Assembly: GCF_009755665.1 (NCBI RefSeq) | Contig: NZ_CP046622.1 | Location: forward strand, 4,951,001 to 5,015,000 | Length of the DNA stretch: 64,000 nucleotides | Reading direction: 5' to 3' | From: Variovorax paradoxus | GTDB lineage: Bacteria > Pseudomonadota > Gammaproteobacteria > Burkholderiales > Burkholderiaceae_C | Shown: positions 3,355 through 56,266 of the stretch, piece after piece | How positions within the stretch are numbered: the first letter of the stretch is position 1 | How the letters are laid out: every line of letters begins with the position of its first letter | Made by a program: the position numbers and the translations under genes | The notes under the pieces: model-generated | Databases searched by the model: none | Seen by the model: only the letters and a program-made list of their open reading frames with translations | What the model was told of the DNA's origin: nothing

Positions 3355-3361
3355 GAAGGAA

Positions 3362-39119: not shown

Positions 39120-40085
39120 ATGCTGCCGCCCCAAATCGGTCCGAATTCGCCTCTGTTCATCGTTCTCAACGCCGGTTCAGGCAGCGCGGACACCGCCGAA
39201 ACCCGCCGGATCATCGAGGAGGGCTGCACCGCGGCCGGCCGCAAGCACCGCATCTTTCTTGTGGACGAGCGTGCCACGGTGCAGGCGCTCGCGCGTGAAG
39301 CCGTGGAGCGGGCCCGCGCCGTCGGCGGCGTGGTGGTGGCCGCGGGCGGCGACGGCACCATCAACGCGGTGGCGCAGGCCACGCTCGGCAGCGGCCTGCC
39401 CTTTGGCGTGCTGCCGCAAGGCACCTTCAACTACTTCAGCCGCGCGCATGGCATTCCAGGCGATACGACCGAGGCGCTCCAGCTGCTGCTCACCGGGCAG
39501 CCGCAACCCGCGCAGGTGGGGCTGGTGAACGACCGCGTGTTCCTGGTCAACGCAAGCATGGGGCTGTACGCCGAGCTGCTGGAAGAGCGCGAAAGCTACA
39601 AGGCGCGCTACGGCCGCCATCGGTGGATCGCGTTTTTCGCGGGGCTTCTGACCGTGATGCGCGGGCACCGGCTCTGGAACCTGCGCATGGCCTGGCGAGG
39701 CCAGGAACGCGACGTCCGGACCCCGACGCTTTTTGTCGGCAACAACCCCTTGCAGCTGCTGCAGGTGGGCATCGAACATGCCGACGCGCCCGAAAACGGG
39801 CAGCTGGCGGCCGTGGTGCTGAAGCCGACGGGGGTGCTGGCAATGCCCGGCCTGCTGGTGCGCGGCGCGCTGGGCCGCCTCGGGAGCGCCGACGAGGTGC
39901 TGAGCTTTCCGTTCGAGTCGATGACGGTGAAGACCGGCCGGCTGCATTCCCCGCGCCGCGTGAAGGTGGCCACCGACGGCGAGATCGCCTGGACCGAGAT
40001 GCCGCTGCTGTTCCGGGTGTCGCCCGAGCCGCTGTGGCTGGTGCGGCCCGATTCCGCGCCCGAACTGGAGGCCGCGAAGCAATGA
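39120..40085 (+). CDS. Diacylglycerol kinase-family lipid kinase (YegS/BmrU type)
   Basis: 321 residues from the ATG at 39120. Family motifs: FIVLNAGSGSAD at the start, GGDGTINAVAQ near 75, LPQGTFNYFSRAHGIP and the C-terminal dual-domain text. It uses ATP to phosphorylate a lipid hydroxyl. It lies divergent from glyQ, and its 3' end overlaps the next gene by 4 bp (ATGA). The lipid substrate (diacylglycerol or other) is not evident. Confidence 0.88.
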   Translation: MLPPQIGPNSPLFIVLNAGSGSADTAETRRIIEEGCTAAGRKHRIFLVDERATVQALAREAVERARAVGGVVVAAGGDGTINAVAQATLGSGLPFGVLPQGTFNYFSRAHGIPGDTTEALQLLLTGQPQPAQVGLVNDRVFLVNASMGLYAELLEERESYKARYGRHRWIAFFAGLLTVMRGHRLWNLRMAWRGQERDVRTPTLFVGNNPLQLLQVGIEHADAPENGQLAAVVLKPTGVLAMPGLLVRGALGRLGSADEVLSFPFESMTVKTGRLHSPRRVKVATDGEIAWTEMPLLFRVSPEPLWLVRPDSAPELEAAKQ

Positions 40086-40906
40086 GCTGCCTGCTCCAGA
40101 TTTCAGATACGCATTTCGGCACCGAGCAAGCCCACGTGATGGAGGCGCTGGAGCGGCTTGCGCACTCCCTGTCGCCGCAGGTGGTGGTGCTCTCCGGCGA
40201 CATTACCCAGCGGGCCACGCGCGCGCAGTTTGCGGCGGCCAAGGCCTTCGTCGACCGGCTCGCGCCGCCCGCGTTGGTGGCTATTCCCGGCAACCACGAC
40301 ATTCCTCTCTTTCACATGGCGGCGCGGCTGTTCTCGCCTTATGAAAGGTATACCGAAGCCTTCGGCACCGATCTGGAACCGATGTTCGAATCCGCCGAAT
40401 GGCTGGTGCTTGCGGTCAACACCACGCGCTGGTACCGGCACGAGGACGGCGAGGTCTCGCCCGAGCAGATCGAGCGGGTCGCGGCCCGGCTGGCGTCCGC
40501 TTCGCCTTCGCAGTTGCGCGTAGTGGTGACGCACCAGCCGGTGATGGTCACGCGCCAGGAAGACATGCACAACCGGCTGCGCGGCCGCGAAACGGCTGTG
40601 GCGCGATGGAGCCACGCGGGCGCAGACCTGATTCTTGGGGGCCACATCCACCTGCCCTTTGTGCGCTCGCTGCACGACGCCTATGCGGGTTGCCCGCGCA
40701 CGACCTGGGCGGTGCAGGCCGGCACGGCCGTGTCGTCGCGCGTGCGGGCGGGGCATCCCAATTCGGTGAACGTGCTGCGTATGGAGAACATTGGTGGTAC
40801 TCGCGTTTGCCAAGTGGAGCGGTGGGACCATTCGGCGGTTCACAAGGCCTTTGTGTGCGGCAAAGTATTGCGGCTTCGGCTTGCCACCGGCGCGGCGCTC
40901 CCTTAG
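40082..40906 (+). CDS. CpdA-like metallophosphoesterase
   Basis: 274 residues. Motifs of the calcineurin-like family: ISDTHFG, LSGDITQRA, IPGNHDIP and GGHIHLPF. No signal peptide or membrane helix, so it is cytoplasmic, in contrast to the phosphoesterase at 20957. Starts in the ATGA overlap with the lipid kinase. A cyclic nucleotide or phospho-lipid substrate is possible. Confidence 0.88.
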   Translation: MSCLLQISDTHFGTEQAHVMEALERLAHSLSPQVVVLSGDITQRATRAQFAAAKAFVDRLAPPALVAIPGNHDIPLFHMAARLFSPYERYTEAFGTDLEPMFESAEWLVLAVNTTRWYRHEDGEVSPEQIERVAARLASASPSQLRVVVTHQPVMVTRQEDMHNRLRGRETAVARWSHAGADLILGGHIHLPFVRSLHDAYAGCPRTTWAVQAGTAVSSRVRAGHPNSVNVLRMENIGGTRVCQVERWDHSAVHKAFVCGKVLRLRLATGAALP

Positions 40907-40916
40907 GGTGCCCCGC

Positions 40917-41735
40917 ATGCCAACGGAAGCCCCTGCCCTCGTTCTTCTCGCGCGCCAGCTCGGCGAGCATGCCCTTGCCTGGTTCCTGTGTGTTTTCGCG
41001 GTGTCGGTGCTGGGCGCCGGCCTGGCCTGCCGGTTGCTGCAGCGCCGCCGCGCCAGGATTTCGTCGAGCGACGAGCCTGACGAGCCGCGCGTGGCCGCCG
41101 GGCTGGCCCTGGGCTTCGTGCTGATCCTTGCGGCGGCGAGCCTGGTGGCCTACATCGCATCGATGCTGGGCGACGGGCGCCTGCTCGGCCTGGCCGACCA
41201 GGCGCTGGCCGACGCCATCGGCGAGCATGTGCCGTGGGCGGCCCTCGTGGTCTTCAGCTGGCTCACGCACCTGGGCGACGCCGAATTGCTGGCGCCTGTT
41301 TGCGTGGTGCTGGCTCTTGTGCTGTGGCGCAACGCGCACCGCGGGCTGGCCCTGGGCTGGGTAATGGCGCTCGGCGGCATCGTGCTGCTGAACCCCGCGC
41401 TCAAGCGCATCTTCGCGCGGGCAAGGCCGCTGCACGACCATGGGCTGGCGCTGGAGACGAGCTTCAGCTTTCCGAGCGGCCACAGCGCGGGCGCGATCGT
41501 GAGCTACGGCATGCTGATGTATTTGGCGCTGCGCCTGTTGCCGGCGCGCTGGCATGTGCCGGCGGCCATGGCGGCCGCCGCAGCCATCGTCACCATTGCG
41601 TGCAGCCGCGTCTTTTTGCAGGTGCATTTCGCAAGCGACGTGGTGGCCGGCCTGCTGACCGGCCTGGGCTGGCTGCTCGTGTGCGTGAGCAGCCTCGAAT
41701 ACGCGCGGCACCGCAAGCGGCGGGCCGCGCGCTGA
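40917..41735 (+). CDS. PAP2-family membrane phosphatase
   Basis: 272 residues from the ATG at 40917. PAP2 signature: KRIFARARP (motif 1), PSGHSAG (motif 2), and SRVFLQVHFASDV (motif 3). About six hydrophobic segments fit the family. A hydrophobic anchor opens the protein (LAWFLCVFAVSVLGAGLACR). With the lipid kinase and phosphoesterase it forms a lipid phosphate cycling group. The exact lipid is not known. Confidence 0.9.
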   Translation: MPTEAPALVLLARQLGEHALAWFLCVFAVSVLGAGLACRLLQRRRARISSSDEPDEPRVAAGLALGFVLILAAASLVAYIASMLGDGRLLGLADQALADAIGEHVPWAALVVFSWLTHLGDAELLAPVCVVLALVLWRNAHRGLALGWVMALGGIVLLNPALKRIFARARPLHDHGLALETSFSFPSGHSAGAIVSYGMLMYLALRLLPARWHVPAAMAAAAAIVTIACSRVFLQVHFASDVVAGLLTGLGWLLVCVSSLEYARHRKRRAAR

Positions 41736-41741
41736 ACGGGA

Positions 41742-43653
<1,912 letters not shown>

Positions 43654-43661
43654 GGCGCCGA

Positions 43662-44603
43662 CTACGACGCCCCAGCTTCCCAGGCGCGGCCCGTCGGGTC
43701 GGCCAGCGCGAGCCGCATCATCTCGATGAAGCGGCGCAGCCGCGCCGGCTGGAACCGCGCATGCGGATAAGTCAGATAGACAGGTAGCGCCGCCACATGC
43801 CACTGCGGCACAAGCTGCACCATGCGGCCAGTGGCAATGTCGTCATTCATGAGCCAGGCCGAACCCATGCAGGCGCCAAGACCCATGCGCGCCGCGCTTT
43901 GCAGCGCATAGAGGCTGTCGGTGCTCATGCGCGGCCGGATGGGCACATGCGCAATCTCGCCGGACGGACTGTGGGTGAGCACCACCTCGTTTCGATAGAA
44001 GGTGCGCAGCGCGATCCACGGCAGTTCGGCCAGCTCCGATGCATGCGTGGGCGGCTTGCGCCCGACCAGCACCGAAGGGGCGGCCACCACCACGCGCGGC
44101 ACCTCCGAAAGCTTGATGGCCACGGCCATCGTGTCCGTCACTTCGCCCACCTGGATGGCGCAATCGACGCCTTCGGCGATGAAGTCGGGCCGGCGGTCGT
44201 TCAGCAGCCATTCGACGGACACCCGCGGGTACGCGCGCAGGTAGTCGGCCAGCGGCCCGACCAGCAGCAATTGCCCCAGCGCATGCGGCGCCACCACGCG
44301 CAGCGTGCCCTCGGGCTCGTCGCCCACGCCGCGGAGGTCGGCCTCGAAGGCGTGCCAGTCGGCGATCAGCTCCCGGGCCCGCTCGTAGCAACGCTCACCG
44401 TCTTCCGTGAGCTTCATGGCGTGGGTGGAACGGCGCAGCAGCCGCACACCGAGCGAGCGTTCCAGCGCCTGCAGCCGCCGGCTCACGGTGGGCTGGGTGG
44501 CGCCCATCTGCTGGGCGGCGGCCGAGAGGCTGCCCGCTTCGACGATGTGAATGAAGGTCTGCATCAGTTCGATGCGGTCGGCGGCGGGGGAAGAGGTCGA
44601 CAT
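43662..44603 (-). CDS. LysR-family transcriptional regulator
   Basis: 313 residues from the ATG at 44603. N-terminal winged HTH: AGSLSAAAQQMGATQPTVSRR, then LQALERSLGVRLLRR. The substrate-binding domain is complete. It is divergent from the MFS gene, 110 bp apart, with two palindromes between them, so it probably controls that transporter. It ends 8 bp past the tetR-type stop on the opposite strand. Confidence 0.9.
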   Translation of the reverse strand: MSTSSPAADRIELMQTFIHIVEAGSLSAAAQQMGATQPTVSRRLQALERSLGVRLLRRSTHAMKLTEDGERCYERARELIADWHAFEADLRGVGDEPEGTLRVVAPHALGQLLLVGPLADYLRAYPRVSVEWLLNDRRPDFIAEGVDCAIQVGEVTDTMAVAIKLSEVPRVVVAAPSVLVGRKPPTHASELAELPWIALRTFYRNEVVLTHSPSGEIAHVPIRPRMSTDSLYALQSAARMGLGACMGSAWLMNDDIATGRMVQLVPQWHVAALPVYLTYPHARFQPARLRRFIEMMRLALADPTGRAWEAGAS

Positions 44604-44613
44604 GGACTGTCTT

Positions 44614-44674
44614 ATGCGTGTGGCGTATAGACATTGTGCGGTCTTCAGGGCTACCAAGTTACGCCTCATAGGCG
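44614..44674. promoter_or_regulatory. Palindromes in the lysR/MFS divergent space
   Basis: ATGCGTGTGGCGTAT (44614-44628) is a 15-bp dyad with one mismatched pair. CGCCTCATAGGCG (44662-44674) is a perfect dyad with a 3-bp centre. Both sit between the lysR and MFS start codons, as LysR regulatory and activation sites often do. The assignment is inference. Confidence 0.4.
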
Positions 44675-44713
44675 CACATTTCAACCCTCGCTCAGTATTC
44701 AAGGGTTAACGCC

Positions 44714-45937
44714 ATGTCTTCCATTCAACAAACGCATGCCTCGGATGCCGCTGCACCGGCGACACGCGACCTGCCGGCCTCGCTGGTGCTGCTGCTCGCC
44801 ACGGGCGCCGGGCTGTCCGTGGCCTCGCTCTACTACGCCCAGCCGATGCTCGGCGTGCTGGGCGCGGACATCGGCGCCTCCGCGCGGTCGGTTGGGTTCA
44901 TTCCCACACTTACTCAGCTTGGCTACGCGCTCGGCATCCTGCTGCTGGCACCGCTGGGCGACCGCTACGACCGGCGCCGCATCGTGCTGGCCAAGGCGGC
45001 CGCGCTGTGCGCCGCACTGCTGGTGGCCGGGGCCGCACCGTCGATCGGCATGCTGCTCGCGGCCAGCCTTGCCATCGGCCTCGCGGCCACGATGGCGCAG
45101 GACATCGTGCCCGCCGCCGCCACGCTGGCGCCCGAAGCCACGCGCGGCAAGACCGTGGGCACGGTGATGACGGGGCTGCTGCTCGGCATCTTGCTGTCGC
45201 GGGTGGTGAGCGGCTTCGTGGCGGAGCACTTCGGCTGGCGCGCGATGTTCATTGCGGCGGCAGCCAGCATCGCGCTCATTGGCGCGGCCGCCTGGTGCGG
45301 CCTGCCGCGCTTCAGGCCAACCACGCACCTGGGCTACGGTGCGCTGCTCGGATCGCTGGGCACGCTGTGGTCGCGCCACGGCGCCCTGCGCCGCGCTGCG
45401 CTGGCACAGGCACTGCTGGCAGTGGGCTTCAGCGCCTTCTGGTCGACGCTGGCGGTCATGCTGCACGGCGAGCCGTTCCACCTGGGCAGCGCGGCTGCGG
45501 GTGCCTTCGGCCTGGCCGGTGCGGCCGGCGCGCTTGCGGCGCCGCTGGCCGGAAGGCTGGCCGACCGCCGCGGGCCCGAACTGGTGACGCGGCTCGGCGC
45601 GGGGCTGGTGGTGGTGTCGTTCGCGGCCATGGGGTTTGCGCCGCTGCTGCCGCCGCATGCGCAACTCTGGCTCTTGGCGCTTGCCGCAATCGGTTTCGAC
45701 CTGGGCATGCAGGCGGCGCTGATTGCGCACCAGACCATCGTCTACGGCATCGAGCCCGGTGCGCGCAGCCGGCTCAACGCGGTGCTGTTCACCAGCATGT
45801 TCATCGGCATGGCGGCCGGCTCGGCGCTGGGCGCGCTGGCGCTCGCGCAGTGGGGCTGGGCGGGTGTGACGTGGCTGGCAACCGGCACGGCCGCGGCGGG
45901 CCTGGGCGTGCGGCTCTGGCGAGGCAAGGCGGCGTAG
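44714..45937 (+). CDS. MFS efflux/uptake transporter
   Basis: 407 residues with about 12 hydrophobic segments. The loop 2-3 motif reads APLGDRYDRRRIVLAKAAAL, typical of MFS. It resembles the drug:H+ antiporter type by length and the YYAQPMLGVLGADIG start. Divergent from the LysR gene that probably regulates it. It ends 60 bp before the sigma-54 promoter of the next operon and is not part of it. Confidence 0.87.
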   Translation: MSSIQQTHASDAAAPATRDLPASLVLLLATGAGLSVASLYYAQPMLGVLGADIGASARSVGFIPTLTQLGYALGILLLAPLGDRYDRRRIVLAKAAALCAALLVAGAAPSIGMLLAASLAIGLAATMAQDIVPAAATLAPEATRGKTVGTVMTGLLLGILLSRVVSGFVAEHFGWRAMFIAAAASIALIGAAAWCGLPRFRPTTHLGYGALLGSLGTLWSRHGALRRAALAQALLAVGFSAFWSTLAVMLHGEPFHLGSAAAGAFGLAGAAGALAAPLAGRLADRRGPELVTRLGAGLVVVSFAAMGFAPLLPPHAQLWLLALAAIGFDLGMQAALIAHQTIVYGIEPGARSRLNAVLFTSMFIGMAAGSALGALALAQWGWAGVTWLATGTAAAGLGVRLWRGKAA

Positions 45938-45972
45938 CCGCCAACCTCTGAGCCGCGGGACAAGACTCCCGC

Positions 45973-45989
45973 CTCACCACTCCGGTGCA
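45973..45989 (+). promoter_or_regulatory. NtrC-like site upstream of the sigma-54 promoter
   Basis: CTCACC-ACTCC-GGTGCA matches the NtrC consensus TGCACC-N5-GGTGCA at 10 of 12 positions (the first two differ). It lies 7 bp before the -24 element, closer than classic enhancers at -100 or beyond. The pairing with a sigma-54 promoter supports nitrogen control. Confidence 0.5.
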
Positions 45990-45996
45990 TCCGGAT

Positions 45997-46012
45997 TGGC
46001 ACGCCGCTTGCA
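45997..46012 (+). promoter_or_regulatory. Sigma-54 (RpoN) -24/-12 promoter
   Basis: TGGCACGCCGCTTGCA contains TGGCAC-N5-TTGCA, a perfect match to the consensus TGGCACG-N4-TTGCW. The predicted start is near 46023, 28 bp before the ATG at 46051. It drives the seven-gene operon that follows, and lies after the MFS stop. Confidence 0.8.
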
Positions 46013-46050
46013 TAACCTGACCACTTGCTCTGATTAAGCGGTCAAACACC

Positions 46051-46638
46051 ATGCGCGTGCTCGTCGTCTACTGCCACCCGGTCGAAACCAGCTTCCATGC
46101 GGCCCTGCACCAGGAGGTGCTCAAGAACCTGCGCGCGGCCGGGCACGAGGTGGACGACTGCGACCTGTACGCGGAAGGCTTCAACCCGGTGCTTTCGCGC
46201 GAGGAGCGGCTGGGCTACCACGACGTCCCGCACAACCACTTGCCGCTCAAGCCCTATGTGGAGCGCCTGCAGTGGGCGGAGGGCATCGTTTTCTGCTTTC
46301 CGACCTGGTGCTTCGGCCTGCCGGCGATGCTGAAGGGCTACTTCGACCGGCTCTTCATGCCCGGCGTGGCGTTCGACATCAGCGACCCGGCCAACGTGAA
46401 GCCGATGCTCACGCACATCAAGCGCATCAGCGCCGTGGTCACCTATGGCCGCCCGCGCTGGATGGCCTGGTACATGGGCGATCCGCCGCGCAAGATCGTC
46501 ACGCGCTACATGCTGCGGCTCACAGGCCGGCGCGCCAAGGTGGACTACCACGCCCACTATCACATGAACGTGGCGACCGAGCCCCAGCGGAGGCGCTTCA
46601 TGGCGCGGGTCGGCACCGCAATGGCGCGCTTCGCATGA
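46051..46638 (+). CDS. Flavodoxin-fold NAD(P)H-dependent oxidoreductase
   Basis: 195 residues, flavodoxin_2 type. MRVLVVYCHPVETSFHAALH at the start is the FMN-phosphate loop of the family, and FPTWCFGLPAMLKGYFDRLF is the second flavin-binding stretch. It carries FMN or FAD and transfers electrons from NAD(P)H. First gene after the sigma-54 promoter and overlapping the next gene by 4 bp (ATGA). It may supply electrons for reductive or oxygen-using steps of the pathway. Confidence 0.88.
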   Translation: MRVLVVYCHPVETSFHAALHQEVLKNLRAAGHEVDDCDLYAEGFNPVLSREERLGYHDVPHNHLPLKPYVERLQWAEGIVFCFPTWCFGLPAMLKGYFDRLFMPGVAFDISDPANVKPMLTHIKRISAVVTYGRPRWMAWYMGDPPRKIVTRYMLRLTGRRAKVDYHAHYHMNVATEPQRRRFMARVGTAMARFA

Positions 46639-47909
46639 TGGCGCCCGCTTTTCTCGACAACGCGCGCCTGCCGCGCTGGCTGCTGCCCGCTGACTGGCCG
46701 CAGCAAGGCGGCGTGCCGGTGCTGGCCCGCATTGACCTCGACGCCGGGAACGTGCAGTCGGTGCGGCCCGCATCCGATGGCATGGCACCCTCCCCGCAGG
46801 GCTGGGATCTTGCCGGGACGCTGGTGCTGCCCGGTTTTGTCGATGCGCACACGCACCTCGACAAGGCGTTCACGCTGCCGCGCATGAAAGAGGTGCGGCC
46901 CGGCCTGCTTGGCGCCATTGACGTGATGCTGAACGACCGCGTGCACTGGAGCGCCGCCGACGTGCGCGAGCGCGCCTCTCGCGGCCTGCAGTGGGCGTGG
47001 GAATGCGGCACCACGCATGTGCGCACGCATGTCGACTGGTGGGAGCCCGATGCGGTGCCGCTCGCCTGGCCGGTGATGGCCGAACTGGCGCAGGAATGGG
47101 CAGGCAAGGTGCGGCTGGAGCAGGTCAGCCTGATCAAGCTGCCGCTGTTCGAAGATGCCGCGCAGGCGATGCGGCTCGCGCAGCAGGTAAAGGCCACGGG
47201 TCCGCAGGCCGTGCTGGGCGGATTCGTGCATTCCACCAACTGGAGCGAACGGGCGCTGCGCAACCTGCTGGTGTCGTCGCAGGCCTGCGACCTGGACGTC
47301 GACCTGCATGTCGACGAAGAACTGAATCCCGCAGCCGTCGGCTTGCAGACGGCCGCCCGCATCCTGCGAGAGATCGGCTTCGAAGGCCGCGTGGTGTGCG
47401 GCCACATCTGCGCGCTGGCCGCCCAGCCGGAGGCCCAGGCCTTTGCCACGCTCGACGCGGTGGCGCGCGCGCCGATCACCGTGGTGTCGCTGCCCGCTAC
47501 CAACCTGCTGCTGCAAGACGCCGTCACAGGCCGCACACCACGCATGCGCGGCATCACGCTGGTGAAGGAGGCGCGCGAACGCGGCATTCCGCTACTGTTT
47601 GCGAGCGACAACGTGCAAGACCCGTTCTGCCGGCTCGGCAGCTTCGACCCGGTCGAGGCGCTGGGCACCGCCGCATTGGTGGCGCAGTTGGACGAACCTT
47701 TCGACAACTGGTCGCAGGCGCTGTGCCGCGGCGACTGGCTTCAGCGCGGGCCGGCCACGGCGGCGCCCACGCTCGTCGGCGCCAAGGCCGACCTGGTGCT
47801 GTTCACCCAGGCCGACCGCCACGGCTGGCCCTCGCGCAGCGCGGCCCGCTTGGTGCTGCGCGACGGCCACGTCACGCACGGCGACGCGTCGCTTTTTCAT
47901 TCCCGCTAA
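46635..47909 (+). CDS. CodA-like amidohydrolase (cytosine deaminase family)
   Basis: 424 residues from the ATG at 46635. Metal motifs: VDAHTHLDKAF (HxHxD), HVDEELNP (His and Glu), VVCGHICAL (His), and SDNVQDPF (Asp), the pattern of cytosine deaminase and related N-ring deaminases. The chosen ATG overlaps the previous stop codon. It would deaminate or open an N-heterocycle. The true substrate is not known. Confidence 0.87.
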   Translation: MMAPAFLDNARLPRWLLPADWPQQGGVPVLARIDLDAGNVQSVRPASDGMAPSPQGWDLAGTLVLPGFVDAHTHLDKAFTLPRMKEVRPGLLGAIDVMLNDRVHWSAADVRERASRGLQWAWECGTTHVRTHVDWWEPDAVPLAWPVMAELAQEWAGKVRLEQVSLIKLPLFEDAAQAMRLAQQVKATGPQAVLGGFVHSTNWSERALRNLLVSSQACDLDVDLHVDEELNPAAVGLQTAARILREIGFEGRVVCGHICALAAQPEAQAFATLDAVARAPITVVSLPATNLLLQDAVTGRTPRMRGITLVKEARERGIPLLFASDNVQDPFCRLGSFDPVEALGTAALVAQLDEPFDNWSQALCRGDWLQRGPATAAPTLVGAKADLVLFTQADRHGWPSRSAARLVLRDGHVTHGDASLFHSR

Positions 47910-47926
47910 AGAACCAAGGACCTCCC

Positions 47927-48790
47927 ATGCTCCACGGCTACATACCGCCCCATCGCTTTCTGCCCTATCTGAGCTGGACAGAAATTGCCGCGTTGCCCGA
48001 CCGCGAGAACACGGTCATCGTGCTGCCCTGCGGCGCCATCGAGCAGCATGGCCCGCACCTGCCCTGCTCGGTCGACAGCGTGATCGCCTCGGGCGTGATG
48101 GGCAAGGCGCTCGAGAAGCTGCCGGCCGAGGTGCGCGCCTTCGCGCTGCCGACCATTACCTACGGCAAGTCGGAAGAGCACCTGCACTTTCCGGGCACCA
48201 TGACGCTCACCGGCACTACGCTTTTGTCCACCGTGACCGAGATTGGCGAATCGGTTTACCGCGCGGGCTTTCGCAAGCTGCTGTTCGCCAACGGCCACGG
48301 CGGCCAGCCGCAGGTGCTGGAAATGGCGGCGCGTGAACTACGCCTGCGCCATGGCGACTTCGTGGTGGTGCCGCACGGCGTGTCGCGCCTGCCGAATGCA
48401 TCCAGCAAGCAGATCAGCGAGCAGGAAAAGCGCCTTTCTATGCATGCCGGCCATTCCGAGACCGCACTGATGCTCGCGCTCGCGCCCGACACGGTGCACA
48501 TGGAACGCGCGGCCGCCAACTTTCCGCCGCCGTTCCCGATCAAGCTGCTGTCGGCCGATGGCCGCCCCGCGTGCGCATGGACAGCGCGCGACTTCGGCCC
48601 GAGCGGCGTGATCGGCGATCCGACCAATGCCACGCGTGAGCAGGGCGAAGAGATCCTGGACACGCTGTCTGACAGTTGGGTGCAGGCGCTGACGGAACTG
48701 CATGCGCTGCGCTGGCTTGTGCGCGACGAGCCGACCTGGGAGCGCGGCCACCAGCAGGGCTTCATCCAGCAGTCGTTCGAGCCCGCCTGA
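47927..48790 (+). CDS. Creatininase-family protein
   Basis: 287 residues. Motifs: LPCGAIEQHGPHLPCSVDS (metal-binding Glu, His and Asp), FANGHGGQPQVLEMAAREL, and GHSETALML (Glu). This family opens cyclic amides such as creatinine or the formamide of pterin/flavin precursors. Start 47927 with AAGGA 9 bp before. In this operon it is the candidate ring-opening enzyme. Confidence 0.87.
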   Translation: MLHGYIPPHRFLPYLSWTEIAALPDRENTVIVLPCGAIEQHGPHLPCSVDSVIASGVMGKALEKLPAEVRAFALPTITYGKSEEHLHFPGTMTLTGTTLLSTVTEIGESVYRAGFRKLLFANGHGGQPQVLEMAARELRLRHGDFVVVPHGVSRLPNASSKQISEQEKRLSMHAGHSETALMLALAPDTVHMERAAANFPPPFPIKLLSADGRPACAWTARDFGPSGVIGDPTNATREQGEEILDTLSDSWVQALTELHALRWLVRDEPTWERGHQQGFIQQSFEPA

Positions 48791-48867
48791 GGCGCGCTAC
48801 TTGCATCGCACCCGCTTCCTTCCTTCTTCTTCAACCGTTCTTCCACCAGCCTCGAGAGGTTCCCACC

Positions 48868-49854
48868 ATGCGTTCTTTCGCTCTTTCCATGGCCGGCGCC
48901 GCCGCGCTCGCACTGTTCTCCGCCGCCGCGCCGGCCCAGGCGCAAGACAAGTTCACCTACATGACCAACTGGTACGCGCAAGCCGAACACGGCGGCTTCT
49001 ACCAGGCGGTGGCACAGGGCATCTACAAGAAACACGGACTCGACGTGACCATCAAGATGGGTGGCCCGCAGGTCAACATCACGCAGATGATGGCCGCGGG
49101 CCAGGCCGACTGCATCATGGGCTCGAGCGACATCCAGATGATGCAGGTGCGCGAAGGCGGCGTGCCGGTGGTCAACGTGGCGGCCTTCTTCCAGAAAGAC
49201 CCGCAGGTGCTGATTGCGCATGACGACGTCAAGAAGTTCGAGGACCTGAAGGGCAAGACGCTGCTGATCGGCGCGCAGGCCAATCGCGGCTACTGGCCGT
49301 GGCTCAAGGCCAAGTTCGGCCTTACCGATGAGCAGACGCGCCCCTACACCTTCAACATCCAGCCCTTTGTGGCCGACAAGAACACGGCGCAGCAGGGCTA
49401 CCTGACCTCGGAGCCCTACGCCATCCAGAAGGCCGGCGTGAAGAGCACGGTACTGATGTTCAGCGACCACGGCTTTCCGGCGTACGCCACGACGGTGTCG
49501 TGCATGGAAAAGACCGTGAAGGACCGCAGCAAGCAGGTGGAGGCCTTCGTGAAGGCTTCGGCCGAGGGCTGGAAGAGCTACCTTGCCGACCCCGCGCCCG
49601 CCAATGTGCTGATCAAGAAGGACAACCCCAACATGACCGACGACCAGCTGGCCTACAGCGTCGCCAAGCTCAAGGAGATGGGCATGATCACCGGCGGAGA
49701 CGCAGCCAAGCTCGGCATTGGCGTGATCACCGACGCACGCTCGAAGGCGAGCTACGACTTTCTCGTGAGCGCCAAGCTGCTCGACCCGGCCAAGGTGGAA
49801 CTTGCGAAGACCTACACCACCGAGTTCGTGAAGGACGCGAAGGTACTGCCCTGA
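48868..49854 (+). CDS. ABC transporter periplasmic substrate-binding protein, NMT1/THI5-like
   Basis: 328 residues. Signal peptide at about 1-26 (ALSMAGAAALALFSAAAPAQA), mature domain begins with QDKFTYMTNWYAQAEHGGFY. It has the SsuA/THI5-like fold of receptors for pyrimidine or sulfonate-type solutes. No lipobox, so it is free in the periplasm. It serves the ATPase and permease that follow. Confidence 0.9.
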   Translation: MRSFALSMAGAAALALFSAAAPAQAQDKFTYMTNWYAQAEHGGFYQAVAQGIYKKHGLDVTIKMGGPQVNITQMMAAGQADCIMGSSDIQMMQVREGGVPVVNVAAFFQKDPQVLIAHDDVKKFEDLKGKTLLIGAQANRGYWPWLKAKFGLTDEQTRPYTFNIQPFVADKNTAQQGYLTSEPYAIQKAGVKSTVLMFSDHGFPAYATTVSCMEKTVKDRSKQVEAFVKASAEGWKSYLADPAPANVLIKKDNPNMTDDQLAYSVAKLKEMGMITGGDAAKLGIGVITDARSKASYDFLVSAKLLDPAKVELAKTYTTEFVKDAKVLP

Positions 49855-49864
49855 GTCTCGCGCC

Positions 49865-50695
49865 ATGAATCGCATCGAACCCCACACCCTTGCGCCCCCC
49901 GCGGTGCCTGCCGTGCCCGCGGTGGAAGTGCTCTCGGCAGAGAAGACTTACCCGAACGGCACGCAGGCGCTGCTGCCGGTGGACCTGTCGATCGCCGAAG
50001 GCGAATTCGTCACGCTGCTGGGGCCTTCGGGCTGCGGCAAGAGCACGCTGCTGAAAATGGTGGCGGGCATGCTCGAGCCGAGCGACGGGCGCCTGCTCGT
50101 GTGGCGCAAGCCGGTGGCGGAGATCCACAGCTGCCCGCACAAGCTGTCCTTCGTGTTCCAGTCGGCCACGCTGATGCCGTGGGCCAGCGTGCGCACCAAT
50201 GTGCGGCTGCCGCTCGACCTGGCCGGCGTGCCGCGCAAGGAGGCCGACGCGCGTGTGATGGAGTCGCTCGCGCTGGTGGGCCTGGAGAAGTTTGCCGATG
50301 CGCTGCCGCGCGCGCTCTCGGGCGGCATGCAGATGCGCGTGTCGATTGCGCGCGGACTCGTGACGCAGCCTGACCTGCTGCTGATGGACGAGCCCTTCGG
50401 CGCGCTCGACGAGATCACGCGGCACAAGCTCGACGCCGACCTGCTCGACCTCTGGCGCAAGAAAAAGCTCACGGTGATCTTCGTGACGCACTCGATCCAC
50501 GAGGCGGTGTTTCTCTCGACCCGCGTGGTGATGATGGCCGCGCGGCCCGGCCGCGTGGTCGAGCAGTTCCACATCGACGAGCCCTATCCGCGCACACCCG
50601 ACTTCATGGTGACGCCCGAATTCGCGCGCGACGCCAAGCGCCTGCAGGACAGCCTGCTGCGCGCCAGCCAGGGCGACGAGGAGCATGCGCAATGA
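49865..50695 (+). CDS. ABC transporter ATP-binding protein
   Basis: 276 residues. Walker A GPSGCGKST, Q-loop FVFQSATLMPW, signature LSGGMQMRVSIARG, Walker B LLLMDEPFGALDE and the H-loop TH. Sub-family of nitrate/taurine/pyrimidine importers. Overlaps the permease gene by 4 bp (ATGA). Confidence 0.93.
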   Translation: MNRIEPHTLAPPAVPAVPAVEVLSAEKTYPNGTQALLPVDLSIAEGEFVTLLGPSGCGKSTLLKMVAGMLEPSDGRLLVWRKPVAEIHSCPHKLSFVFQSATLMPWASVRTNVRLPLDLAGVPRKEADARVMESLALVGLEKFADALPRALSGGMQMRVSIARGLVTQPDLLLMDEPFGALDEITRHKLDADLLDLWRKKKLTVIFVTHSIHEAVFLSTRVVMMAARPGRVVEQFHIDEPYPRTPDFMVTPEFARDAKRLQDSLLRASQGDEEHAQ

Positions 50696-51498
50696 AGAAA
50701 AGCACCCCCCTTTTTAGCCAGCCGCGCGTGCAGCGCGTGCTCTACCCGGTACTCATCGGCATGGTGCTGGTGGCGCTGTGGCAATGGATGGTGGTGGCGA
50801 TGGAGCTGCCGCCCTACCTGGTGCCCTCGCCCATCCTGATGGTGCAGACGCTCGTCACCGACTGGGCGCCGCTCGGCAACGCGCTGCTCGTCACGCTCAA
50901 GATCACGCTGCTGTCGTTCGCGCTGGCCACGGTGGCGGGCGTGCTGATCTCGTTTCTTTTCGTGCAGAGCAAGCGCATCGAGACTGCCCTCTTTCCGTAT
51001 GCGGTGCTGTTGCAGGTGACGCCCATCGTGGCGGTGGCGCCGCTCATCATCATCTGGGTGAAGAACCCGGTGGCGGCGATGACGGTGTGCGCCGCACTGG
51101 TGGCGCTGTTCCCCATCATCAGCAACACCACGCTCGGATTGCGCAGCATCGACCCCGACCTGCAGAGTTATTTCAAGCTCAACCGCGCGACACGCTGGCA
51201 GCAGCTGGTGCGGCTGCGCATTCCGAGCGCGCTGCCTTACTTCTTCGGCGGGCTGCGCATTTCGAGCGGCCTCGCACTCATCGGCGCCGTGGTGGCCGAG
51301 TTCGTCGCCGGCACGGGCGGCTCGGGTGCAGGGCTGGCGTACCAGATCCTGCAGGCCGGCTTTCAGCTGAACATTCCGCGCATGTTCGCGGCCCTGCTGC
51401 TCATTTCGCTGACCGGCGTCGCGCTCTTCGTGCTGATGGCCTGGCTCACCAAGGTGGCGCTGGGCTCATGGCACGCGAGCGAACTTTCCCAGGATTGA
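50692..51498 (+). CDS. ABC transporter permease
   Basis: 268 residues with about six membrane helices (RVLYPVLIGMVLVALWQWMV at the start). The coupling loop is seen in RIPSALPYFFGGLRISSGLA, where the EAA-type motif would be. BPD_transp_1 / TauC-SsuC family. It forms the membrane channel for the receptor and ATPase just upstream. Confidence 0.92.
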   Translation: MKKSTPLFSQPRVQRVLYPVLIGMVLVALWQWMVVAMELPPYLVPSPILMVQTLVTDWAPLGNALLVTLKITLLSFALATVAGVLISFLFVQSKRIETALFPYAVLLQVTPIVAVAPLIIIWVKNPVAAMTVCAALVALFPIISNTTLGLRSIDPDLQSYFKLNRATRWQQLVRLRIPSALPYFFGGLRISSGLALIGAVVAEFVAGTGGSGAGLAYQILQAGFQLNIPRMFAALLLISLTGVALFVLMAWLTKVALGSWHASELSQD

Positions 51499-51508
51499 AA
51501 CCTTGACC

Positions 51509-52882
51509 ATGAACGCTTTAATTTCCGCCATAGAACAGCTGCAGCTCGAACTGCCCGAGCTCGACTGGATCACCGATGAAAGCCGCGTGACGCGGCTGTC
51601 GCAAGACTTCTCATGGTTCAGCCCGGTACTGACCCGCCAGCTGAAAGACAAGCGCGCCGACGTGGTCGTGCGTCCGCGCACCGAGGAGGAGATTCGCGCA
51701 GTGGTCGGCGCCTGCGCACGGCGCAATGTGCCGATCACCCTTCGCGGCAGCGGCACCGGCAACTACGGCCAGACCACGCCGCTCGCGGGCGGCGTGGTGC
51801 TCGACATGACGGGCTACAACGCCTTTCTTTGGGTGAAGCCCGGCGTGGCGCGCGCGCAGGCCGGCATTCGCCTGGGCGAGCTCGAGAAGCAGACCAAGCC
51901 TTCAGGCCAGGAGATGCGCTGCCTGCCCTCCACCTACCGCAGCGCCACGCTGGGGGGCCTGTTCGGCGGCGGCTTCGGCGGCGTGGGCTCCATCAACTAC
52001 GGGCCGCTGGGTGCGCCCGGCAACGTGCTCGGCATTCGCGCGATGACCATCGAGGCGGAGCCCCAGGTGGTCGAGTTGCGCGGCGCCGACGCCATGCGCA
52101 TGCACCACCTGTGGGGCACCAACGGGCTGGTGCTCGAAATCGAGGTGGCGCTGGCGCCGTCGCATGCCTGGCTCGAAACACTGGTGACCTTCGACAAGTT
52201 TGAAGACGCGCTCCATTTCGCCGACAGGCTGGCCAATGCACCCGGCATCGTGAAGCGGGAGATCGCTTTTTTTGCCGCGCCCATTTCCGATCATCTGGCA
52301 CAGCTCGCGGCGCACCTGCCCAAGGGCTGCCACACGGTGCTGTCGCTCGTGGCCGAGTATTGCGAGCCGGCCATGCTGCAGCTGGCCGAAGCGCACGGCG
52401 GCACGGTGAGCTACCGCAAGACAGCGGCCGAAGTGCAGAAGAGCAATCGCACGCTGATGGAGTTCACCTGGAACCACACCACGCTGCATGCGCTGAAGGT
52501 CGACCCGACGCTGACTTACCTGCAGAGCGGCTTCATTCCGGGCCGGCAGGTCGAGCAGATCATCGAGATGGAGAAGCTGCTCGGCGGCGAGGTGATGATG
52601 CACATCGAGTTCATCCGTAACGTGGCGGGGCTCATGACCTGCAGCGGGCTTCAGCTGGTTCGCTTCAGCACCGAAGAACGGCTCTCGGAGATCATCGACA
52701 TTCACCGCGCCCACAACGTGCACATCAACAACCCGCATGTGAACATTGTGGAGGACGGCAAGGCCGGTGGGCCGCTGCCGCCCGAGGTCATCGAGGTGAA
52801 GAAGCGCTTCGATCCGATGGGGCTGCTGAACCCGGGCAAGCTGCGCGACTGGCCCGTGAAGGCGGTGCCGGCAACAGCCTGA
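51509..52882 (+). CDS. FAD-linked oxidase (GlcD/PCMH type)
   Basis: 457 residues from the ATG at 51509. A TTG at 51503, two codons earlier, has better spacing to AGGA (8 bp against 14), so the start is uncertain. The PCMH FAD-binding domain reads VVVRPRTEEEIRAVV and PITLRGSGTGNYGQTTPLAG. The C-terminal FAD_oxidase_C-like part ends in KKRFDPMGLLNPGKL. It oxidises a hydroxy acid or N-ring substrate to a keto or imine. Last gene of the operon. Confidence 0.87.
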   Translation: MNALISAIEQLQLELPELDWITDESRVTRLSQDFSWFSPVLTRQLKDKRADVVVRPRTEEEIRAVVGACARRNVPITLRGSGTGNYGQTTPLAGGVVLDMTGYNAFLWVKPGVARAQAGIRLGELEKQTKPSGQEMRCLPSTYRSATLGGLFGGGFGGVGSINYGPLGAPGNVLGIRAMTIEAEPQVVELRGADAMRMHHLWGTNGLVLEIEVALAPSHAWLETLVTFDKFEDALHFADRLANAPGIVKREIAFFAAPISDHLAQLAAHLPKGCHTVLSLVAEYCEPAMLQLAEAHGGTVSYRKTAAEVQKSNRTLMEFTWNHTTLHALKVDPTLTYLQSGFIPGRQVEQIIEMEKLLGGEVMMHIEFIRNVAGLMTCSGLQLVRFSTEERLSEIIDIHRAHNVHINNPHVNIVEDGKAGGPLPPEVIEVKKRFDPMGLLNPGKLRDWPVKAVPATA

Positions 52883-52899
52883 TGACGATCCGCCCTGCG

Positions 52900-54489
52900 T
52901 CAGCCCTTTCGGCGGCGCAGCGCGAAGGCAATGGCGACGACAGCCAGCGCCGAGATCCACAATGGCCAGAGCCCGAACGGCGCCACCCAGCGCGCATAGG
53001 GCGTGAGCCCCTTGCGGCCTTCGACCGGGGCTTCGAGCACGCCGCGCGTAAGGCGCGGCAGCTGGTGCGTGACGCGGCCTTCGGCGTCGATCACCACGGT
53101 TGCTCCGGTGTTGGTGGCCCGCACCATCGGCCGTGCGAATTCGAGCGAGCGCATGCGCGAGATGGCCAGGTGCTGGTCGATGGCGACCGAGTCGCCGAAC
53201 CACGCGATGTTGCTCACGTTGAGCAGGATGGTCGGCGCCGTAGCCTCGCTCTTGAAGTTGGCGCCGATCTCGTCGCCGAACAAGTCTTCGTAGCAGATGT
53301 TCGGCGCGATGCGCTGGCCCTGCCAGGCGAAAGGCGCCTGCGCCAGGCCGCCACGGGCGAAGTCGCCGAGCGGAATGTTCATCATGCGGATGAACCAGCG
53401 AAAGCCCGGCGGAATGAACTCGCCGAAGGGAACGAGGTGGTGCTTGCTGTAGCTGTAGGGCTGCGCGGCGCCGGGCTGGAAGCCGAGCACCGCATTGCTG
53501 TAGGTGCCCTGGCCGCCCATCGGAAGCCCGACGATGGCGGCCTGCGTGCCCTGGCTGTAGCGCGCCTGGATGGCTTCGAGGTAACCGGCGGGCAGTTGCT
53601 GCGGCAGCAGCGGCAATGCGGTTTCGGGCGTGACCACGAGTGAGGCCTTGGCGTCGCGCAGCTGCTCGCCGTACCAGCGCAGCGCCAGGTCGATACCGCC
53701 GCCCGGAATGAATTTTTCGTCTTGCGGGATGTTGCCCTGGAGCAGCGCCAGCTGCAGCTTGCCGCTCGAGCCCTTGTCGCCTTGTGCATCGGCGGGCAGC
53801 GGATTGACCAGGTGCGGCGCCGCGAACACGGCGACGATCACTACCAGCGACTGCGCCAGTGCCGCGGTGCGCGCGGGCCGCGTGAGCGCGACGAGTGCGG
53901 CCGCGATGGCGGCGACTGCGCCGATGCCGTACACACCGATCCACGGTGCCCAGGCTGCCAGCGGTCCTTCGACATGCGCGTAGCCGCCGGCGCCCCACGG
54001 AAAGCCGGTGAACCAACTGCCGCGCACGAGCTCGGCCAGCGTCCACAGCGCGGCGAAGACCAGCGCACCGGCCACGGGCCCGCGCGGCCCGCGAACCACG
54101 AACCAGGCACACGCCGCCGCGTAGTACAGGCCGAGCGCCGCCGCAAGCGCGAGCACTGCGATGGCCGCGAGCGGCGCCGGAAGCCCGCCGTAGGTATGCA
54201 TCGAGATGAAGAGCCACCAGAAACTGCCGGTGAGCCAGGTCGTCGAGAAAAGCCAGCCATGCAGGCCGGCGCGGCGCCAGCCTGCTCCTTCGGCGCGCAG
54301 CCGGTCCAGCAGACCGACGAGCACCGCCAGCGAGATCAGCTGCAGCCACCACAGCGGCTGGCCGTTCGAGGGCCAGGCAATGGCGGCAGCCTGCGCAAGA
54401 CCCGCGAAAGCAAAGCCGAGAAGGCGCAGCAGGCCCACGGCGGAAAGGAGGCGCGAGGTGCGGAGCGTGGCCGCTGCGGGCAATGGCAT
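52900..54489 (-). CDS. lnt: Apolipoprotein N-acyltransferase
   Basis: 529 residues. About six N-terminal membrane helices, then a nitrilase-like domain. The Glu-Lys-Cys triad is visible: VTPETALPLLPQQLP (Glu), a Lys further on, and NICYEDLFGDEI (Cys). It finishes lipoprotein acylation at the inner membrane. Overlaps corC by 1 bp (TGATG). In other Comamonadaceae lnt is usually next to glyQ; here they are 14 kb apart. Confidence 0.95.
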   Translation of the reverse strand: MPLPAAATLRTSRLLSAVGLLRLLGFAFAGLAQAAAIAWPSNGQPLWWLQLISLAVLVGLLDRLRAEGAGWRRAGLHGWLFSTTWLTGSFWWLFISMHTYGGLPAPLAAIAVLALAAALGLYYAAACAWFVVRGPRGPVAGALVFAALWTLAELVRGSWFTGFPWGAGGYAHVEGPLAAWAPWIGVYGIGAVAAIAAALVALTRPARTAALAQSLVVIVAVFAAPHLVNPLPADAQGDKGSSGKLQLALLQGNIPQDEKFIPGGGIDLALRWYGEQLRDAKASLVVTPETALPLLPQQLPAGYLEAIQARYSQGTQAAIVGLPMGGQGTYSNAVLGFQPGAAQPYSYSKHHLVPFGEFIPPGFRWFIRMMNIPLGDFARGGLAQAPFAWQGQRIAPNICYEDLFGDEIGANFKSEATAPTILLNVSNIAWFGDSVAIDQHLAISRMRSLEFARPMVRATNTGATVVIDAEGRVTHQLPRLTRGVLEAPVEGRKGLTPYARWVAPFGLWPLWISALAVVAIAFALRRRKG

Positions 54490-55367
54490 CAGTCGGCTGC
54501 GTCGCTGCCGCGGGCCGGGGACACCTTGAACCAGCGCACCGCGCCGCCCTTGGTGTGCAGCACGACGAAGTCGAAGCCGCCGATGGCGTGGTGTTCGCCG
54601 CGCTTGGGCACGTGGCCCATCTCATGCGCGATGAGGCCGCCGATGGTGTCGAAGTCTTCGCTCAGCTGTTCTTCGTCGAAGACGATGCCGAAGGCCTCGG
54701 CCACGCGCTCGATCGGTGTATCGCCCGAGACCCGGTAGGTGTGGTCGGCCAGGCCGAAGATGTCGCCTTCGTCCTCGGCAATGTCGAATTCGTCTTCGAT
54801 CTCGCCGACGATCTGCTCGAGCACGTCTTCGATGGTGATGAGGCCGGCCACGCGGCCGAACTCGTCGATCACGATGGCCAGGTGGTTGCGGTTGCCGCGG
54901 AACTCGCGCAGCAGGTCGTTCAGGCCCTTGCTCTCGGGAACGAAGGTGGCCGGACGCAGCAGTGCGCGAATGTTGAGACCCGGCGCACGCTGCAGCTTGA
55001 GCAGGTCTTTCGCGAGCAGGATTCCGATGATGTTTTCTTTTTCGCCCTCATACACCGGAAAGCGCGAGTGCGCGGTGTCGATGACGAGGTGCAGCAGCGC
55101 GTCGAAGGGCGCATCGATGTTGACCAAGTCCATGCGCGGGGCGGCAACCATCACGTCGCCGGCCGTCATGTCGGCCATGCGCAGCACGCCTTCGAGCATC
55201 ACGCGCGACTCCGCGCCGATCACCTCGTTGTCCTCGGCGTCGGCCAAGGTTTCGATCAGCTCGTCGCGCGAGTCAGGACCGGGGTGGATGAATTCGGCCA
55301 GTTTCTGGAGAAAGCCGCGCTTGTCTTCCCGTTCGACGGGTGCGCGTTCAGGGTGAGGTTCGGCCAC
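54489..55367 (-). CDS. corC: CorC/HlyC-family CBS-domain protein
   Basis: 292 residues, the length of E. coli CorC/YbeX. Two CBS domains at about 65-190 (SRVMLEGVLRMADMTAGDVM, IGILLAKDLLKLQRA), then a CorC_HlyC transporter-associated domain. No DUF21 membrane region, so it is soluble. Its known partner gene lnt follows directly, as in E. coli. Possible role in magnesium/cobalt balance. Confidence 0.92.
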   Translation of the reverse strand: MAEPHPERAPVEREDKRGFLQKLAEFIHPGPDSRDELIETLADAEDNEVIGAESRVMLEGVLRMADMTAGDVMVAAPRMDLVNIDAPFDALLHLVIDTAHSRFPVYEGEKENIIGILLAKDLLKLQRAPGLNIRALLRPATFVPESKGLNDLLREFRGNRNHLAIVIDEFGRVAGLITIEDVLEQIVGEIEDEFDIAEDEGDIFGLADHTYRVSGDTPIERVAEAFGIVFDEEQLSEDFDTIGGLIAHEMGHVPKRGEHHAIGGFDFVVLHTKGGAVRWFKVSPARGSDAAD

Positions 55368-55499
55368 TGCGGGAGGCGTAGTTGAAGAGATACAAGGATA
55401 CCGGATTGCGTGTGACAGGCTCTACCCCTGGCACGCGGCCCCTCGGCAATTCGGCTACAGGACGAAACAGGCGCGGTTGGCGCAGGCGCCGCTCGAAGG

Positions 55500-55532
55500 A
55501 AGCCCGGGCGCATGCCGCGGCACGCCCGGCTT
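55500..55532 (-). terminator. Hairpin after the GNAT gene, possible terminator
   Basis: AAGCCCGGGCG (55500-55510) and CGCCCGGCTT (55523-55532) form a GC-rich stem of about ten pairs with one bulge and a 12-base loop. It lies just after the GNAT stop codon on the minus strand. The T-run expected for an intrinsic terminator is missing, so the call is weak. The rest of the 170-bp gap shows nothing. Confidence 0.4.
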
Positions 55533-55537
55533 GCTGC

Positions 55538-56266
55538 TTACTGGGCCGACTTGCTGCGGGCGTCGCGTATGCCGCTGCGCACTTCCTGCAGGCTCGCGAG
55601 AAAGGCCCAGAACTGCTTGGCGCGGGTCTTGAGGTGGTAGTCGACTGCCGCGTAGTGCTCGAGTGCGATTTCGCTCATGCGGCTGTCGAAGGTGGCGCTC
55701 GGCAGCTGCAGATGCGCCTCGGACTCCGAGCCGCTGCGCACCACGGTGGCGCCGGCGTTGCGGGCGATCTTCAGCATGGCGGCGTTTTCGCTCAGCGCAT
55801 GAATAAAAAGCATGCCCACGCCTTCGTTGCGTGCGACCACCACTGCGCGCTCGAACAGGCGGGCGCCGTAGCCCCGGCCGCGCGCATGCGCTGCCACGGA
55901 CACGCCGAACTCGGCGCAGTCGCTGTGCTGGTCGTCCGGCGCGAACGCTAGGTGCGCCATGGCGATCAGGTCGAGGCGGCGGTTGTAGATGCCGAAGAGC
56001 TCGTCGCGGTCGAAGTCGAGACCATCGACATAGCGCTGCACCTGCTCGTCCGACGCGGCATAGCCGAAGCGCAGGTAGCGGTCATGGGGGGTCAAGGCCA
56101 GCAGGTGGCGCGCGATGCGGTCGCGTTCGCGCGGGCCGATCGAGCGGATCGGCACCATGACGGGCTGGGGCGCGGAGGTCGCGCGCGGTTGCGCCTCAAC
56201 CATCGGCGCCTTCAGGAAAGAGCCGAGGCCGAGAGACGCTTGAATAAGGGTCTTGGCGGTGAGCAT
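55538..56266 (-). CDS. GNAT-family N-acetyltransferase
   Basis: 242 residues from the ATG at 56266. The acetyl-CoA loop is in FGVSVAAHARGRGYGARLFE (R/Q-x-x-G-x-G/A type). A second ATG at 56203 has GAAGG about 6 bp before it, and the promoter at 56273-56300 would put the first ATG at the transcript start; the shorter form (221 residues) may be the real one. The first 21 codons still have coding-like GC at third positions. Acceptor unknown. Confidence 0.83.
   Translation of the reverse strand: MLTAKTLIQASLGLGSFLKAPMVEAQPRATSAPQPVMVPIRSIGPRERDRIARHLLALTPHDRYLRFGYAASDEQVQRYVDGLDFDRDELFGIYNRRLDLIAMAHLAFAPDDQHSDCAEFGVSVAAHARGRGYGARLFERAVVVARNEGVGMLFIHALSENAAMLKIARNAGATVVRSGSESEAHLQLPSATFDSRMSEIALEHYAAVDYHLKTRAKQFWAFLASLQEVRSGIRDARSKSAQ

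Follow-up and report, generated by a model that had tools for sequence, protein, structure and literature searches.

A sigma-54-type operon of Variovorax paradoxus with a start-site palindrome and a predicted role in nitrogen-heterocycle use

Layout and control region of the seven-gene operon

The stretch analysed here (the window) covers 64 kb of the single-contig, 5.57-Mb genome of Variovorax paradoxus (G000:C1:4951001-5015000) and contains an operon of seven plus-strand genes, G1 to G7, which span positions 46051-52882 with intergenic gaps of −4, 17, 77, 10, −4, and 10 bases and are preceded by a sigma-54-type promoter, an NtrC-like dyad, and a palindrome at the predicted start (Table 1). 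The nearest named relatives of G3 come from Variovorax. The original prediction, made from the sequence without database searches, described seven tightly packed genes forming one transcription unit, which the layout supports, and the families it named for all seven, including a complete ATP-binding cassette (ABC) importer of the NMT1/THI5 type, match those assigned by Pfam.

Table 1. Features of the operon and its regulatory region (positions in the window)
Feature	Position	Strand	Remarks
RutR-like TetR regulator	42901-43653	+	Nearest solved structures E. coli RutR; start codon tentative
NtrC-like dyad CTCACCACTCCGGTGCA	45973-45989		2 mismatches to TGCACC-N5-GGTGCA, left half weak
Sigma-54 -24/-12 element TGGCACgccgcTTGCA	45997-46012	+	Perfect TGGCAC-N5-TTGCA
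29-bp palindrome CTGACCACTTGCTCTGATTAAGCGGTCAA	46017-46045		Overlaps predicted start; candidate operator of the RutR-like TetR
G1, flavodoxin-fold NAD(P)H reductase	46051-46638	+	PF02525 (Flavodoxin_2), E 5e-29
G2, amidohydrolase, PRK07583 group, candidate deaminase	46635-47909	+	Pfam Amidohydro_3
G3, creatininase-superfamily hydrolase	47927-48790	+	PF02633 (Creatininase), E 1e-75
G4, NMT1/THI5-type substrate-binding protein	48868-49854	+	PF09084, 111.1 bits against a cut-off of 20.5
G5, ABC transporter ATPase	49865-50695	+	PF00005 (ABC_tran)
G6, ABC transporter permease	50692-51498	+	PF00528 (BPD_transp_1)
G7, FAD-binding oxygenase-like enzyme	51509-52882	+	FAD_binding_4; alternative TTG start at 51503 possible

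The -24/-12 element is the only perfect copy in the window, which by itself proves little, because the number of sites with at most 1 mismatch (2) is close to expectation (1.8). In the whole genome, 10 perfect sites were counted against 1 for the reversed pattern, and one of them lies approximately 230 bases before an ntrC match. It is conservation, rather than the lone site in the window, that carries the case for a putative sigma-54 promoter. A single scan of named genomes yielded 253 relatives of G3, and the 80 best of these, representing 79 loci, made up the comparison set; 13 further stretches were added, and since 5 of their contigs repeat named ones, the counts of promoter and palindrome regions include duplicates. 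The upstream test covered 79 loci with G1, 77 of them with at least 350 bases upstream and 2 too short. With score weights set by hand, and on loci that are mutually related, a sense-strand sigma-54-like site was found in 76 of the 77 upstream regions; dinucleotide shuffles gave such a site in 9 of 1540 cases, and opposite strands in 1 of 77. The sole exception among the regions, L114, has TGGCACGCTCTATGCG. The distance from the site to G1 (n = 79) is 52-59 bases in 67 loci and 88-177 in 10; two loci stand apart, L111 with 26 bases and L033 with 374, the latter having an additional gene in between. As both this distance and the five-base spacer vary, the conservation is not merely a matter of close relatedness. 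The perfect element of the original prediction thus has GG at -24, GC at -12, and the standard spacing, and is kept in orthologues, as is characteristic of sigma-54 promoters.

Five loci that lack G1 (L055, L059, L071, L072, and L101) retain TGGCAC-N5-TTGC before the unit and a sixth (L079) has a variant; in 3 other G1-less loci from Comamonadaceae (L028, L109, and L110), the stretch before the unit gave only poor matches. A good site was lacking from the single intergenic stretch scored ahead of the unit in each of Rahnella, Klebsiella, Pantoea, two rhizobia, and L205, and likewise from two stretches of a paralogous cluster in the same genome (the sister cluster, L167, described below), which has no site with at most 1 mismatch over its whole length. 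The best scores in these stretches range from 0.1 to 8.9, compared with 19.7 for the window. Sigma-54 control as an ancestral trait was therefore rejected. Elsewhere in the genome, other perfect sites precede a receptor-like frame and a frame which, read from the letters, resembles an amidase, and 2 identical perfect sites (L003 and L008; G000:C1:381474 and 2175941) stand before 260-aa frames that begin alike and lie on opposite strands, which probably reflects a duplicated stretch.

The palindrome was found with at most 2 mismatches in 76 of 80 regions (the 79 loci with G1 and the window), 21-24 bases after the first T of the -24 element. Two of the 4 misses (L031 and L107) lie on one contig, where the pattern misreads the palindrome; L106 has 3 mismatches and L032 has no palindrome. 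The two arms covary across 26 distinct versions, with 26 two-sided-change cells against 14.4 in shuffles, a value reached by 0 of 500, and true partners pair in 82% of cells compared with 8 to 40% for slid partners. On 3 of 5 measures, 0 of 500 shuffles matched the observed value; the pair count and the pair-type count were unexceptional (141 and 105 of 500 shuffles, respectively). With at most 1 mismatch the pattern has a single site in the genome, and the sister cluster lacks it at up to 4 mismatches. With its overlap of the predicted start, the palindrome occupies a position that suits a repressor operator.

The candidate repressor is a TetR-family protein encoded upstream of the operon. 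In a structure search, its best match was E. coli RutR (E 4e-28), with the next family at 7e-9, although by the curated family TIGR03613 it is not RutR itself (130.4 bits against a cut-off of 368). The five residues listed as uracil contacts of RutR in PMC10891134 (W77, Y97, W167, Q171, and Q179) align with W111, Y130, W199, Q203, and Q211 of the window protein; all five are kept, and across 62 TetR sequences, including that of the window and some from duplicated contigs, there is one exception, at Q171. Of the 79 named loci, 68 have a TetR gene in their stretch; it lies no more than 500 bases ahead of the operon in 33 of them and 0.5-7.9 kb ahead in 35, so that a position directly before the operon was rejected as a rule. 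Judged by linkage and symmetry, the TetR likely binds the palindrome, and the two, both absent from the original prediction, likely form a substrate-specific switch. In E. coli, rutA-G is NtrC-dependent and RutR-repressed, according to PMC10891134, and is among the listed targets of the RpoN holoenzyme. The RutR-like regulator with its kept contacts thus makes the control of the operon look like that of rut; the palindromes differ in length, 29 bp here against approximately 16 bp in E. coli, as given in PMC10891134. In the window, a pair of LysR and major facilitator superfamily (MFS) genes (43662-45937) separates the TetR gene from the operon, an order found in 8 of the 79 named loci; the pair, with its higher G+C content (70% against 66% for the operon), looks as if it had been recently inserted. 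In L049, the gene divergent from TetR (2926-4026) reads, from its letters, like a periplasmic asparaginase, a nitrogen-scavenging neighbour.

The NtrC-like dyad stood up in part: it is present, with its centre approximately 42 bases before the predicted start, but degenerate, its conservation residing mainly in the right half. In 54 of 80 regions, a site with at most 3 mismatches lies within 60 bases before the -24 element, as it does in 3% of letter shuffles; 19 of 80 have no such site on either side by the criterion used. An enhancer site centred near -42 is unusual. The genome has an ntrC gene above the profile cut-off, and NtrC control of the operon is likely, as far as the sequence goes. 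Less likely, the activator is an enhancer-binding protein other than NtrC, or transcription is limited mainly by TetR, as the degenerate, oddly centred, and sometimes missing dyad and the 80 ntrC-profile matches in the genome, indicating many related activators or receiver domains, would allow. No neighbour examined (TetR, LysR, MFS, and Lnt) is a sigma-54 activator, so that no local gene decides the matter. Against such an alternative, the half-site GGTGC lies within 60 bases upstream of the -24 element in 63 of 80 regions, compared with 7.6% of shuffles, and an NtrC-like site stands downstream of the promoter in 10 of 80.

Enzyme families and distribution of the module

The original labels of G2 and G3 did not hold as statements of function, because both proteins score below the curated family cut-offs. 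G2 reaches 320.9 bits against a cut-off of 403 (NF005759) and 95.2 against 483 (NF006685), and a true cytosine deaminase was therefore rejected. Residues H72, H74, H225, E228, H257, and D325 are invariant in 9 sequences and align with those of solved cytosine deaminases; we take them to have the metal-binding and catalytic roles known there, and by these putative residues G2 is of the CodA-type amidohydrolase fold. For G3, the scores are 105.3 bits against 235 for creatininase (TIGR04448) and 147.9 against 172 for MftE (TIGR03964), and in alignments G3 and its relatives have HGG where solved creatininases have NGHYE, the Glu of which is presumably a metal ligand. By these sequence measures, G3 is not a creatininase proper. 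In some relatives, a PDR/VanB-type reductase replaces G1. The structural model of G4 is nearest to pyrimidine-type receptors, and none of the seven genes encodes a carboxypeptidase according to Pfam. The closest solved relative of G7 is PDB 6v42, to which it is homologous over its full length.

The seven genes represent one version, equipped with a control region of its own, of a module that is widespread and includes a branch connected with folate. When matches were required to have at least 38% identity, all seven genes were found in 44 of the 79 named loci, while the search gave no G2 in 23 and no G1 in 9; the short stretches L036, L090, and L112 miss further genes, and some gaps are contig ends. 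In 4 G2-less loci checked, G1 and G3 are 42-50 bases apart. Homologues of G7 at 1e-60 were found in 32 of 398 genomes sampled across the phylum, and 9 of 15 stretches around such homologues hold all seven functions, the remaining 6 holding parts; in this count PDR was accepted for G1 and one sister cluster was included. In the class sample, G3 was found at 1e-50 in 3 of 369 genomes, including that of the window, and in the family sample at 1e-60 in 13 of 150. One of the latter (G053; 48% identity and only a 36% G2-like gene beside G3) was set aside, leaving 12 operon genomes, in one of which (G101) the genes are scattered. Thus, the set recurs across Proteobacteria, and the view that the set is an unknown one, suggested by the original prediction, which knew of no described pathway with exactly these genes, is not supported: the same set occurs in rhizobia, variants occur in Rahnella, Klebsiella, and Pantoea, and a paralogous copy exists in the same genome. 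A literature search, with most subscription papers outside its reach, found no description of the seven-gene set. The rhizobial cluster (R. etli CIAT 652 pC and R. bangladeshense p4) resembles the operon in having all seven gene types, together with RidA, but differs in its LysR regulator and in adjoining urea carboxylase and allophanate hydrolase genes; unlike the operon, the R. etli cluster also encodes a biuret hydrolase scoring above its cut-off.

The sister cluster and a probable link to folate

The sister cluster (G000:C1:5390000-5400400) encodes homologues of G1 (43% identity), G3 (38%), G4 (44%), G5 (52%), G6 (49%), and G7 (39%), a RutR-like TetR (40%), and a PDR reductase, as well as, divergently, RidA and a 398-aa PRK07583 deaminase. 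The last is probably the Variovorax pterin deaminase gene, judged by sequence and gene order. Variovorax sp. F1 has a tested 399-aa pterin deaminase which is 37% identical to Agrobacterium Arad3529 and was cloned with a primer inside a downstream endoribonuclease gene, according to PMC9513972; the sister deaminase fits this enzyme because of its size, its RidA-type neighbour, and its 36% identity to a rhizobial PRK07583 protein. The operon has in common with folate degradation in F1, which PMC9513972 attributes to pterin deaminase and carboxypeptidase G, the genus and a PRK07583-type amidohydrolase; moreover, the probable counterpart of the F1 gene is found in the sister cluster, among gene types that the operon also has. 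The operon differs in that G2 is only 37% identical to the probable pterin deaminase (at G000:C1:5399087) and in having no carboxypeptidase gene.

A second connection to folate comes from G7, which shares with the flavin oxygenase of PDB 6v42/6v43 the same fold over 433 residues at 42% identity, its own function being predicted. The title of entry 6v42 names a folate-catabolism flavin oxygenase; the literature search did not find the organism and paper behind it. In its accessible part, the vitamin B2 paper PMC12746152 mentions neither folate nor pterin.

Predicted pathway and candidate substrates

The original prediction held that the gene set suits import, oxidation, and deamination or ring opening of an N-heterocycle, and our results support this. 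With moderate confidence, we propose that the operon, under nitrogen control, serves to import a compound with a pyrimidinedione-type ring and to open this ring oxidatively in a Rut-like manner, a pteridine being the likeliest substrate. The genes, promoter, palindrome, conservation, families, and sister cluster are read from the sequence, and from them we infer every catalytic step, their order, the substrate, the inducer, the activator, and the binding of TetR to the palindrome. When nitrogen is limiting, sigma-54 RNA polymerase together with an NtrC-type activator would fire the promoter at 45997, which, as long as no inducer is present, the RutR-like TetR would block from the start-site palindrome. 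The importer G4-G6 would take up a heterocyclic compound containing either a 2-amino-4-oxo- or a 2,4-dioxopyrimidine ring. A pteridine of the pterin or lumazine type is the likeliest such compound, and G2 may strip its exocyclic amino group as ammonia. G1 would supply electrons to the FAD oxygenase G7, which would oxidise and open the ring as RutA/F do on uracil; G3, a hydrolase of metal-dependent type, may then cleave the resulting amide or ureide, and a RidA-type protein would clear enamine products. RidA belongs to the unit in several relatives and was seen in the genome of the window only in the sister cluster.

The comparison with E. coli rut rests on both regulatory logic (RutR, NtrC, and sigma-54) and the order of chemical roles, which in PMC8113886 comprise a flavin oxygenase with its reductase, a hydrolase, a RidA-type protein, and an importer. 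By contrast, the oxygenase, reductase, hydrolase, and importer of rut belong to other families than those of the operon. A search of the genome detected no RutA at 1e-30, with E. coli and the Caulobacter ring as controls, and no D-hydantoinase at 1e-60. Since the functions parallel those of rut, are provided by other families, and accompany the lack of RutA and D-hydantoinase matches, the ring attacked is probably a pyrimidinedione, either free or fused. For the substrate itself, a pteridine is a tentative choice, given somewhat less than an even chance, and is the most likely one when set beside a purine or a free pyrimidine.

Rather improbably, the operon acts on a purine in oxidised or modified form (8-oxoguanine, xanthine, or methylated guanine) and makes up the lower half of a purine-oxidation network, the upper half of which is held by xanthine riboswitches. 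A xanthine riboswitch (RF03054) is present in 4 of 7 operon loci scanned and in 30 of the 150 family genomes, namely in 10 of the 12 operon genomes and 20 of the 138 others (Fisher p = 1.3e-6; 10 of 13 and p = 4.8e-6 with G053 counted), in tests that ignore kinship, which lessens the weight of the p values. Genomes with the sister deaminase (21 at 1e-60, some of them found through the G2 of the operon; the 12 with at least 55% identity were taken) also co-occur with the riboswitch, more weakly (7 of 12, p = 0.0026); the riboswitch is found in 4 of 9 genomes with the sister deaminase only (p = 0.08), 7 of 9 with the operon only (p = 0.0002), and 16 of 129 with neither. In one genome (G047, L163), a single run comprises the operon, RidA, a riboswitch, a second receptor, two Rieske oxygenases, and an 8-oxoguanine-deaminase-like gene. 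The riboswitch-linked gene types that we observed agree with those named in PMC7373994, where genes for pcbC-like dioxygenases, PRK12393 deaminases, PDR, and tadA are placed under the xanthine riboswitch. The operon is related to this xanthine-riboswitch (NMT1 motif) regulon by linkage in some relatives, by co-occurrence, and by shared accessory genes. It differs from it in that a scan of window positions 40000-56000 gave no riboswitch. The purine alternative is further weakened by the riboswitch being an OFF switch for other genes and by the title of 6v42, which points to folate catabolism. PMC7373994, the chemicals list of which includes isoxanthopterin, a pterin compound, notes the lack of oxidised-purine degradation genes under the switch. 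Approximately 650 kb from the operon (L152, G000:C1:4331000-4350900), two divergent xanthine riboswitches lie between a Rieske oxygenase gene and a receptor/TadA-like pair, near a gene that reads, from its letters, like a urease accessory gene.

Still less probably, unrelated enzymes make up a Rut-like route that opens a free pyrimidine, either cytosine, uracil, thymine, or a substituted form. Conservation of the five uracil contacts in the RutR-like regulator, the lack of RutA and D-hydantoinase matches at the thresholds given above, and the parallel with RutA/F, RutB, RutC, and RutG as outlined in PMC8113886 would suit such a route, but G2 falls under the cytosine deaminase cut-offs, the PDB title ties the FAD enzyme family to folate, and the operon is linked to purine riboswitch genes. 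Creatinine or hydantoin catabolism, with G3 as creatininase and G2 as creatinine deaminase, is suggested by the Pfam domain of G3 and the CodA-likeness of G2, but is highly improbable and was rejected, given the low score of G3 (105 bits against 235), the HGG in place of NGHYE, and the lack of any creatinase or N-methylhydantoinase family among the seven genes.

Several findings weigh against Rut-like opening of a pteridine under NtrC and TetR control. The riboswitch neighbours point to purines, and the NtrC-like dyad combines a poor match with an unusual position. TetR was not seen in 11 of the 79 named stretches, some of them cut, and lies at a distance of 0.5-7.9 kb in 35. The operon TetR keeps a tyrosine that the sister TetR has lost (Leu in place of Y97), and would thus suit a smaller, uracil-sized inducer. 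Since it was not found in 23 of the 79 named loci, G2 is not indispensable at its place. The structure 6v42 does not single out the operon, because G7 and its sister homologue match it almost equally well (366 and 358 bits), and the literature search found no assay of an operon enzyme or close orthologue.

A broader proposal, possible but doubtful, is that with this module the Rut strategy for pyrimidinedione rings, whether these occur in pteridines, oxidised purines, or free pyrimidines, was invented a second time, unrelated to the first. The module would combine a VAO-type FAD oxygenase, an exchangeable reductase, a creatininase-fold hydrolase, and RidA, with paralogous versions for each ring system; widespread in Proteobacteria, it would have been re-wired in Comamonadaceae to RutR-type and NtrC/sigma-54 control, the same kind that E. 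coli uses for uracil. If the main reading, with a pteridine as the likeliest substrate, is right, it would assign a function open to testing to widespread genes now annotated as creatininase, cytosine deaminase, and FAD-linked oxidase, show soil bacteria recycling nitrogen from pterin-type cofactors, and tie the xanthine-riboswitch network to a degradation pathway. The compact promoter with its defined candidate operator offers a handle for finding the inducer.

Two relatives of the operon have unusual surroundings. One Burkholderiales metagenome genome has tandem copies (L108, also L026/L027), with no G1 found in the second, and on a Pantoea plasmid (L120) a TwoAYGGAY RNA motif is located at 8141-8216, near the LysR gene of the operon.

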